64,000 nt of DNA from Spiroplasma platyhelix PALS-1 (GTDB lineage: Bacteria; Bacillota_I; Bacilli_A; Mycoplasmatales; VBWQ01). The stretch lies in assembly GCF_021496725.1 (NCBI RefSeq), contig NZ_CP051215.1, positions 1 through 64,000 of the forward strand. The letters run 5' to 3'. Positions 1 through 16,112 of this stretch are shown piece by piece. How positions within the stretch are numbered: position 1 is the first letter of the stretch; each line of letters opens with the position of its first letter. Made by a program: the position numbers and the translations under genes. The notes under the pieces are model-generated. The model was given only the letters and a program-made list of their open reading frames with translations. It had not been told where the DNA came from and did no database searches.

Positions 1-1356
1 ATGAGCAACGATTATCAAGAAATTTGAAATAAGATTAAGCAATTCTTACAATATGATGAAGCAGTGGATCCAATGATATTTAATAATTATGTTAAAAATG
101 CCTATATTTCGGATATCAATAATAATCATTGTTTAATTATTGTTGATTCAATTTTTGCTAAAGAAATTTTAAATAAAAATTTAAAAACAAAAATTGAAGA
201 TATTTTAGAAAAAATTAATCACAATAAAATTGAAGTTAATTTTATTGAACCTAGTGATTCTAAAAAAGAAAAACAACAAAAATCAAAAGAAAATAAAACT
301 GATTCTACTATTAATAACTTCTTTTTTGAAAATTTTATTAAAGGAGAATCTAACAATGAAGCTTATCAAGCAGCTTTAGCAATTACCATTGAACCAGGAA
401 AATATTGAAATCCTTTATTTATTTATGGTAATTCTGGGTTAGGTAAAACTCACTTGCTGCATGCAATTGAAAATGAAATTATTAGAAAAAATAAAAATAA
501 GAAAAAAACTATTTATTTATCATCAGAAGAATTTGGTCGTATAGTACCAGAAATTTTGCATCAAAATAGTTCAAATGATATTGAAAAATTTAAAAATTCT
601 TTTAATGATTATGATGTTCTTCTAGTTGATGATATTCAATTTTTAGCTAATCGTAGTAAAACTAATGAAATATTTTTTCATATCTTTAACAATTTTGTTA
701 ACAAACAAAAACAAATTGTGATTACTTCTGATAAAAGTCCTGATGAATTATATGGCTTTGAAGAACGAAATATTTCACGGTTCCAAAGTGGTTTAAGTGT
801 TGGAATTGATTCTCCTGATTTTGAAACTGCGCTAACAATTTTAAAAGAAAAAATTAAATCATTAAACTATGATCCAACAATTTTTACTGAAGAAACATTG
901 CATTTTATTGCTCGAAACTTTAATAGTGATGTTAGAAAATTAGAAGGTTCATTAAATCGTTTAATTTTTTATAGTATTTTATATCTTAAACCAAATCAAT
1001 TAATGACAATTGAAGATGTCATGAAAGCTTTCAAAACTAATACTAATTTGTCTAAAGAAAAGCTCACAGCAAAAAAAATCAAAAAAATTGTTGCAGAATA
1101 CTACAATATTCCAATTAAAATTCTAAATAGCAGCACAAGAGTAAAAGCTATAACAAATGCTAGACATATTGCTATGTATTTAATTAAAGAATTATTAAAT
1201 GAATCATTTGTTAATATTGGAAATGAATTTGGTGGTAAGGATCATACAACAGTAATTAATGCTTATAATAAAATCAAAAAAAATATTGAACAAAATTATG
1301 AATTTAAAAAAACCATTGAAGGATTAAGAAAAGAATGTACTAAAGTTACAATCTAA
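1..1356 (+). CDS. dnaA: Chromosomal replication initiator DnaA
   Basis: DnaA is the AAA+ ATPase that binds DnaA boxes at oriC and opens the duplex. The 451-residue length is normal for the family. Visible motifs are the Walker A loop GNSGLGKT at residues 143-150, Walker B VLLVDDIQ at 206-213, and the C-terminal DNA-binding signature GGKDHTTV near residue 407. ATG at base 1 is followed by a plausible N-terminal domain, and UGA within residues 1-150 encodes Trp. The two boxes it should recognise lie just downstream, before dnaN. Its promoter and leader lie outside the window. The identification is secure. Confidence 0.98.
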
Positions 1357-11703: not shown

Positions 11704-12987
<1,284 letters not shown>

Positions 12988-13126: not shown

Positions 13127-14275
13127 ATGAAATTATTATTAAAAATGTTAAGTGTTTTTACTTTAGCAAGTTCTAGTGTATTGCTTGTAGCACAAACTAA
13201 TGTGATAGATGTTTTCGCTGACCGTGAAGTAAGTTTTTCTATTCCTGTTGAGGGGTTTGAGCAAGAAGGTCCTGAATATAATTTCGCTGCTAATGTTCAA
13301 CAAATATTAAAAACAAAAAATAAAAAAGCTCCTTCGCAAAAAGGTTTAAAATCACAATTTGATCAATTATATGAAGGAACTCCAGAATCATTTAAAAATT
13401 CTGTTACTCAAGTTTTAAATAGTTATTTGTATGAAAAAGATCATACATATTTTAATAAAAAAATAAAAGAAGGTTATGATAGAACTGAAGCTGAAAACAT
13501 GCTCTTTCAAGCAGCAATGTTTTATTCATTATCAAAGGGTTTTCCGGTTTTATTGCAGGTTAATAATTGAAATTTACCCTGATGAGATGAAGGTCAAGAA
13601 GCAAAGCCAATTTTTATTACCATTTATGGTGTTTCAACTAGTGATTATGATGATTTTTCAAAAACTATGTATAGTACTGTTGATCCAGAAATGATACCAA
13701 ATGGTGTTGGATATTTATATTCATCACAGTTAACAGAATTATTTTCTTCTGGTGCACAGTTATGAATGATTGATGATTTATTTGACTTTGAGAATAATCT
13801 ACTTACATTTAATACTAGTGTTGCGGAATCTAGTTTTAATAAATTAACAGATCTTACTACCAGAACAATTACTGTTAGTCAAAATGCTGATATTTTTGAA
13901 TCAGGTGGCATATATTCTTTTGAGTGAATTAAAAAATATATAAATAAAATGACATGAAATAAATCTTATCTTTATTTTTCTTGAAGAGATTTTGTCTTTA
14001 AAAAACCACAAACAAGTGTATATTTTGATAAAGATGCACCAGATGAATCTGATTGAGATCTTGTTACTAACTATAGTACTAAATTCGTTGATACCGAAGT
14101 GGATGAACAAATGACGATTGATACTTCGATAAAATATCGCTATCAATACGGAAATAGTAAGCATACATTAGAGCTTTTTAATCAAGTTCACTGATATGGT
14201 GATGAATGAGTTCCTTCTGAATTTCCTTATATTGGAATATCAATGGGAAATAGTTGAACTTTTCATTGAAGATAG
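13127..14275 (+). CDS. Secreted protein related to the neighbouring C39-like peptidase
   Basis: A 382-residue protein with an N-terminal signal peptide (MKLLLKMLSVFTLASSSVLL, no lipobox Cys) and no recognised family. Two places resemble the next gene: FPVLLQVNN at 139-147 matches FPIFLQVGNN, which precedes the catalytic Cys of that peptidase, and the C-terminus ends in ISMGNSWTFHWR against FNMGNYWKFSFK. The position of the catalytic Cys is not conserved. It is Trp-rich, with many UGA codons. I infer a paralogue that shares the C-terminal domain and either lost or never had peptidase activity. It has its own promoter and AAGGGGG site. Confidence 0.72.
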
Positions 14276-14297
14276 TTTATTAATTTTTAACTATCAA

Positions 14298-14313
14298 TGT
14301 TTCACGTGAAACA
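14298..14313. other. parS: parS-like centromere site
   Basis: TGTTTCACGTGAAACA is a perfect 16-bp palindrome identical to the consensus ParB-binding site tGTTtCACGTGAAACa of chromosomal parS. It lies in the gap between two secreted-protein genes, about 14 kb from oriC, where parS sites usually cluster. No parA or parB gene is in the window. Confidence 0.8.
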
Positions 14314-14347
14314 TATTTGTTTAAAAAATAATATGAGGAGAAAATTT

Positions 14348-15481
14348 ATGAAACAAATTTTAACTATGCTAGGTGCCCTTACTTTAGGGTTAGTAACTAG
14401 TAGCTCAATAATAGCAAATGTTACTCCTTTAACAGACGCGCAAAAGGAAGTAAATCTTTATGAGAATATTTATAACAAAAACTTAGAAAATTTCCCTATT
14501 TTCTTGCAAGTAGGTAATAACTATTGTGTTCCAGCAACTTTACAAGGAGTTTTACAATATTTAACGGATAATTCACCATCACAGCAGGAAATAGCTGCTA
14601 GAGTTGGAACTACTCCATCGGGGACATTTGCTCATAATGTTAGAGAATTTTTTGAAAGTTTTCTTTGAGGAAATCGCCAGGTTTATTATCCACATGTTCT
14701 TCCTCCTTACTATGGCGCAACTATGAATCATATGCTGATGTTTCAGAGTGCTATAATTCAATCTTTAGACCAGGGCTTGCCAGTAGTTTTAGGATTTGTT
14801 GGTTATGTACCATGAACAGGATTAACGCCAACTCAGGGTCATGCTGTTGCAATAACTGGAATTCAAGTTGATGATAATCCTGAAGCAACAGTGTATACTG
14901 TTGCTGAAACTGAAACTGGACAGTTTTCTACATTTACTGGTCAGGATTTAAGAGCTATGATTATTCATGAAAGCTTCTTATTTTTACCAAATCAGAATGT
15001 TTATAATTTTGTCGATGAAACAATGAATCTTTGAGTTAATGGTGCGCAAGGTAATCTTATTGATTGAGCACAGCCAGATCCACAAATTATTTATGAAAGT
15101 GCTAATCTTTTTGGTAGCTTAGGAATCCTTTCTTTAGATATTCTACATAATGCTACAAGTATTGATTTTCCCGAATTTTGACTTAATTATGATTGGAAAA
15201 AAATGCATGATTATGCACCTAAATTTAATTTAGATCCAACAAAAATTACAGCGGATAGTGGTTGAATTAAAGATAATGCAAAAAGTGTTCATTGGACAGA
15301 TGATGCTAATGATGAAGCAATTGTTAATGTTGAATTTAATCAAACACTAAGCAAGCAAAATAATGATTTAACTTTAACATTTAGATATAAAATAACAGGT
15401 AATGGTGATAGAAATAATCCTGATAAATCACCTAGTATTAACTTTAATATGGGTAATTATTGAAAATTTAGTTTTAAATAA
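14348..15481 (+). CDS. Secreted C39-like cysteine peptidase
   Basis: A 377-residue protein. Residues 1-24 look like a signal peptide (MKQILTMLGALTLGLVTSSS). Residues 49-200 have the papain-like C39 pattern: nucleophile in GNNYCVPATLQGVLQYL (Cys60), catalytic His in TQGHAVAITGI (His165), and an acidic AETETGQ stretch near 185. Such domains cleave peptides or leader sequences, here probably outside the cell. Residues about 200-377 form an unassigned Trp-rich domain shared with the upstream gene. ATG at 14348 has AGGAG eight bases before it; an upstream in-frame ATG at 14297 falls in the parS palindrome and is unlikely. No transporter or peptide substrate gene is adjacent. Confidence 0.8.
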
Positions 15482-15647: not shown

Positions 15648-16112
15648 ATGAATAATAAAAAATATCTAAAAGTTGCTGTTAGTTTAGCTAAGAAGGCAAT
15701 TAAGAATAATGATATACCAGTAGGAGCAGTTGTTGTTGATCAAAATGGAAGAATTATTGGTCGTGGTTACAATCGCAAAGAAAAAGATCAAAATCCTTTT
15801 CATCATGCTGAAGTTATTGCAATTCAACAAGCTTGTAAGCAACGCGGTAGTTGAAGACTAGAAGAATGTATTATTTATTCAACTTTAGAGCCTTGTTTGA
15901 TGTGTTTAGGAACAATTTTACAAGCACGCATTAGTTGGATTGTCTTTGGTCTAGAATCAGAGAAATTTGGTTCAATTAAAACCTTAGAAAAGCTAAAAAT
16001 TAATGAAAATTTTAATCATTCCGTTGGTTACACCTATGAACCAATCGCTGATAGCAAAGAAATGTTGCAAGCATTTTTTGGTCAACTAAGAACGCAAAAT
16101 GGTATGATATAA
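15648..16112 (+). CDS. tadA: tRNA-specific adenosine deaminase
   Basis: Converts the wobble adenosine of tRNA-Arg(ACG) to inosine. It has 154 residues in a cytidine-deaminase fold. The zinc site is visible as HAE (53-55) and PCLMC (82-86), with Glu55 as proton shuttle. The gene sits 34 bases after the SRP RNA with GAGG upstream, and 33 bases before dnaX. Confidence 0.95.

Follow-up and report, generated by a model that had tools for sequence, protein, structure and literature searches.

The closest described counterparts of the locus analysed here are the Soj-Spo0J-parS system of Bacillus subtilis and the ParABS systems of other Firmicutes, the ParB-parS pairs of other Spiroplasma and the nucleoid-occlusion protein Noc. 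A ParB protein has been annotated and quantified earlier in Spiroplasma eriocheiris (PMC5988712). R173 and G201 are conserved in all ParB proteins, whereas Noc carries Q173, K179, K184 and R201 (Jalal et al. 2020, PMC7383237). The mechanism expected for such a system in Spiroplasma platyhelix can be drawn from established ParABS biology (review PMC7333895 and general knowledge). Judging from homology, a ParB dimer would bind the 16-bp palindrome, ParB together with CTP would close into a clamp and slide to the adjacent DNA, ParA would move the ParB-parS complexes apart over the nucleoid, and the ParB complex would load SMC-ScpAB beside the origin.

The window, i.e. the whole stretch of DNA analysed (positions 1 to 64,000 of contig NZ_CP051215.1 of S. 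platyhelix PALS-1), carries at 14298-14313 the sequence TGTTTCACGTGAAACA, which matches the parS consensus at 16/16 positions. The perfect parS palindrome claimed in the initial annotation is thus present as an exact 16-mer, and one extra A-T pair extends it to a perfect 18 bp (14297-14314). It is a genuine parS, correctly interpreted and of a well-known type of element. Given that the site occurs only once, its location, the intactness of parA and parB, the parS-type recognition residues of ParB, the presence of scpB and smc and the co-inheritance of site and ParB, all of which were shown here, it almost certainly serves a standard ParABS-SMC segregation system of this Spiroplasma as the only chromosomal parS. 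The features of the region, followed by those of the parAB cluster in genome coordinates, are:

1..1356, + strand: dnaA, located at the origin; DnaA boxes at 1373 and ~744,462
11704..12987, + strand: serS, whose place to the left of parS is conserved in Spiroplasma families
13127..14275, + strand: orfX, lineage-specific gene between serS and parS, signal-like N terminus
14271..14295, + strand: stem-loop with a 7-bp stem (GATAGTT...AACTATC) from RNA folding, ending 2 bp before parS
14298..14313, no strand: parS TGTTTCACGTGAAACA, unique in the genome and kept in the serS-tadA gap of relatives
14348..15481, + strand: orfY, Peptidase_C39_2 domain (E 4.3e-10), signal-like N terminus, start 34 bp after parS
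15648..16112, + strand: tadA-like deaminase gene, conserved as the right-hand border of the parS gap
70306-71010: rsmG, upstream of parA
71064-71828: parA, following rsmG, its end overlapping the start of parB
71821-72711: parB, following parA and completing the rsmG-parA-parB cluster at 70-73 kb

The whole-genome hunt for further copies of the 16-mer, proposed in the initial annotation, led to the identification of a single copy in 744,499 bp, with no parS-like site of 1 or 2 mismatches elsewhere in the genome. Six sites with 3 mismatches were detected; these are at background level, a reversed-pattern control having 5 matches against a total of 7. The match had been considered unlikely to arise by chance, and the Markov models (order 0-3, trained on ~115 kb of the S. 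platyhelix genome) agree, predicting 1.6e-4 to 2.0e-4 copies of TGTTTCACGTGAAACA in the genome and 1.4e-5 to 1.8e-5 copies in 64 kb. The presence of one copy only might be read as an indication of a chance occurrence or of a relic of a lost partition system, yet such an explanation is extremely improbable, given that only 2e-4 copies are expected per genome and that parA and parB are intact. It is refuted by the conservation of the exact site, which is kept in all family relatives and has an unchanged location in each case where both neighbours are readable. Nor is one parS copy unusual, since a single parS is often sufficient (PMC7333895).

The dnaA gene at base 1, the DnaA boxes flanking it and the switch in the sign of the GC skew at the contig ends place parS ~14 kb from the origin, the distance to dnaA being 14.3 kb, or ~1.9% of the chromosome. 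The site is intergenic, 22 bp past the stop codon that ends the ORF at 13127-14275 and 34 bp ahead of the start ATG at 14348; the origin-proximal, intergenic position suggested for it is therefore borne out by dnaA, the DnaA boxes, the GC skew and the ORF limits alike. A coding reading, in which parS would be overlapped by an ORF with a mechanically assigned start at 14297, was also considered. This start has no Shine-Dalgarno (SD) signal, and it was rejected because the downstream start at 14348, led by the SD sequence GAGGAG (14335-14340), is the better one. The serS-tadA gap of the window is enlarged to 2.66 kb and contains orfX and orfY, with parS between them. These two lineage-specific genes are distant paralogues (21% identity, E 2.7e-7), and among the family relatives similar proteins were found in one genus relative only, at another place in the genome. 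As for SerS, its nearest named matches come from Spiroplasma sp. JKS002669 and an uncultured Spiroplasma (73% identity), the remaining ones being from other bacteria.

The proposed search for parB/noc and soj/parA genes revealed parA and parB within the rsmG-parA-parB cluster, which lies 57 kb beyond parS and ~71 kb from dnaA; parAB is located far from parS in the relatives as well. The genome encodes one ParB_N gene, parB (G000:71821-72711), whose product contains the domains PF02195 (ParB_N, E 1.1e-29) and PF17762 (HTH, E 2.1e-33), as well as a GERR motif, and has B. subtilis Spo0J as its best PDB match (E 2.4e-46). The C-terminal dimerisation domain PF23552 was matched with E 9.3e-4 and 19 bits, which is under the Pfam cut-off of 23.8 bits. 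ParA exhibits PF13614 (E 6.2e-64) and the KGGVGKTT motif of a deviant Walker ATPase; its best PDB match (E 3.9e-64) is a ParA family protein, with Soj proteins next. Condensin genes were found too, namely those for ScpB (E 4.4e-50) and SMC (E 8.6e-37). Directly after parB, positions 72700-78862 of the genome (L012:8700-14862) are led by a DNA cytosine methyltransferase-like gene, which is followed by genes for a restriction-enzyme-like protein, an unknown protein and a SNF2-like helicase. Named by reading the translations, this group looks like a restriction or defence island.

The initial annotation had predicted a chromosomal ParB or a Noc-like protein. The first part of this prediction holds, ParB having been found together with ParA, while the second does not. 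Noc is related to ParB, and some division control is needed by helical wall-less cells, hence one could imagine that the site serves, in place of ParB, a nucleoid-occlusion protein of the Noc type, which would thereby tie division to chromosome position. However, the genome contains a single ParB_N protein, no second ParB_N/Noc gene having been found in it, and the gene for this protein lies directly behind parA. In an alignment with relatives and Spo0J, the positions equivalent to Caulobacter 173/179/184/201 are occupied by R, T, D and G (recognition segments KSRPHITN and LTMGHVR), i.e. Arg/Gly in place of the Gln/Arg of Noc and Asp in place of its Lys; because of these residues the protein is assigned to the ParB type, not to Noc. 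Moreover, no Noc-type site (ATTTCCCGGGAAAT core, ≤2 mismatches) is present within the 64-kb window. Taken together, the use of the site by a Noc-like protein seems very improbable.

According to the initial annotation, lack of any parB/noc homologue and lack of conservation in close relatives would refute a parS at this position. On examination the site survives: ParB was found in S. platyhelix, and 8/8 family relatives have parS, with ParB in all 8. In Spiroplasma families f1 and f8 the site is located in the serS-tadA gap, upstream of dnaX, at nearly all loci examined, with 1 to 3 copies per gap, and the gap of the relatives lies near dnaA. The bases flanking parS vary among the relatives, and the 16-mer is invariant. 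In three single-site genomes, G173, G183 and G184 (L093, L103 and L104), the left flank is similar to the one at site 1 of the two-site relatives and the right flank to the one at site 2, as would follow from recombination between tandem parS copies with loss of the intervening stretch.

The survey of 320 genomes of the order, in which the presence of ParB_N was compared with that of a parS site, yielded a ParB_N match in 69/320 genomes, in agreement with the patchiness of ParABS in the Mollicutes asserted earlier. Exact parS occurs in 55/69 ParB_N-positive versus 0/251 ParB_N-negative genomes; with ≤1 mismatch allowed, the respective numbers, tallied by hand, are 63/69 and 23/251. Fisher's test for the exact site against ParB_N gives 4e-49, a value uncorrected for relatedness and descriptive only, which overstates independence because the counted species share ancestry. 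Six ParB_N-positive genomes (G319, G020, G021, G009, G220 and G279) are without a site of ≤1 mismatch. Three of them carry a symmetric variant, TGTTCCACGTGGAACA, which is 2 mismatches off (G319, C1:146424; G020, C55:25064; G021, C105:7302), and in G009, G220 and G279 ParB_N is present and a clear parS was not found. The ParB_N genes of G220 and G279, both incomplete assemblies, may be of other origin. Among the ParB_N-negative relatives, serS-tadA synteny either is broken or lies beyond the stretches examined.

Many relatives have the site immediately past serS and within longer hairpins, the arms of which covary. For 51 non-identical sites of the serS-tadA gap, the mean extension of the perfect palindrome past each end of the 16-mer is 5.4 bp. 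When the left and right flanks were dealt anew between sites, the expected extension was 1.6 bp, with a maximum of 2.7, and 0/10,000 permutations reached the observed value; these arm statistics include related genomes and are hence non-independent. Watson-Crick pairs are in excess at arm positions 1 and 3-8 and no further out, the pair types being A-T, T-A, C-G and G-C. The arms of many relatives measure ~8 bp per side, covary and are lineage-specific. A site with ≥5 extra pairs occurs in 21/32 genomes. The longest perfect palindromes are those of L178 (40 bp) and L113 (56 bp), and extended ones are also found at parS in L095, L096, L107, L112, L058 and others. The 17 sites of ≤1 mismatch from other bacteria, the majority of them Bacilli or Clostridia, extend just 0-3 bp.

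The A-rich left and T-rich right flanks of the relatives' sites suggest that the arms may act as a serS terminator. One could go further and regard the palindrome mainly as an RNA/DNA hairpin, i.e. a terminator of the upstream gene, its likeness to parS being secondary. Nevertheless, a terminator does not need an exact 16-bp core, nor need it be missing from every ParB_N-negative genome, and the window site has 1 extra pair only, with a separate 7-bp stem just upstream, which is possibly the 3' end of the upstream gene's transcript. A simple terminator scan called no site at the parS region of the window, a separate terminator hunt in genomes without extended arms gave no clear pattern, and a literature search for parS as a terminator or for parS in Spiroplasma found nothing relevant. 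A mainly hairpin function of the palindrome is highly unlikely. A true parS may still be embedded in a hairpin, and we tentatively propose, as a rather doubtful possibility, that the Spiroplasma centromere is the core of a ~32-bp (up to 56-bp) hairpin, the arms of which are lineage-specific yet complementary. The window site would then have lost its arms, perhaps after the two genes entered the gap. If the arms are selected, parS would be doubly used, for instance by ending the serS transcript or by being extruded as a DNA hairpin; the same pattern could be produced without selection via template-switch correction of quasi-palindromes.

The present results establish that the very small chromosome of this Spiroplasma retains all of ParABS, its one parS occupying a fixed and conserved address, and that the ParB_N-negative mollicutes of the order are without the exact site altogether. 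The complete ParABS with one parS therefore makes Spiroplasma a simple one-centromere system for tests of ParB function, useful also for the question of how minimal mycoplasmas manage without ParB-parS. Since a Spiroplasma ParB had been annotated already (PMC5988712), the value of the present analysis lies in the tested co-inheritance, the conserved address and the unexplained arms of the relatives.

With the Soj-Spo0J-parS system of B. subtilis and other Firmicutes the S. platyhelix system shares the 16-bp site located near the origin, the Spo0J-like ParB (E 2.4e-46), the Soj-like ParA, the rsmG-parA-parB gene order, and SMC with ScpB. It differs from these systems in having one site instead of several, and in the location of parAB, which is ~71 kb away from dnaA and separated from parS by 57 kb. 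Noc belongs to the same protein superfamily as the ParB of S. platyhelix, but its recognition residues and site sequence are different, and no second ParB_N gene exists here. In Spiroplasma families f1 and f8, ParB is likewise accompanied by an exact site within the serS-tadA gap, close to dnaA, while in family f10 exact and 1-mismatch sites are mixed. Compared to other Spiroplasma, the gap of the window has two added genes for secreted-type proteins, and its palindrome is without the long arms of many relatives.
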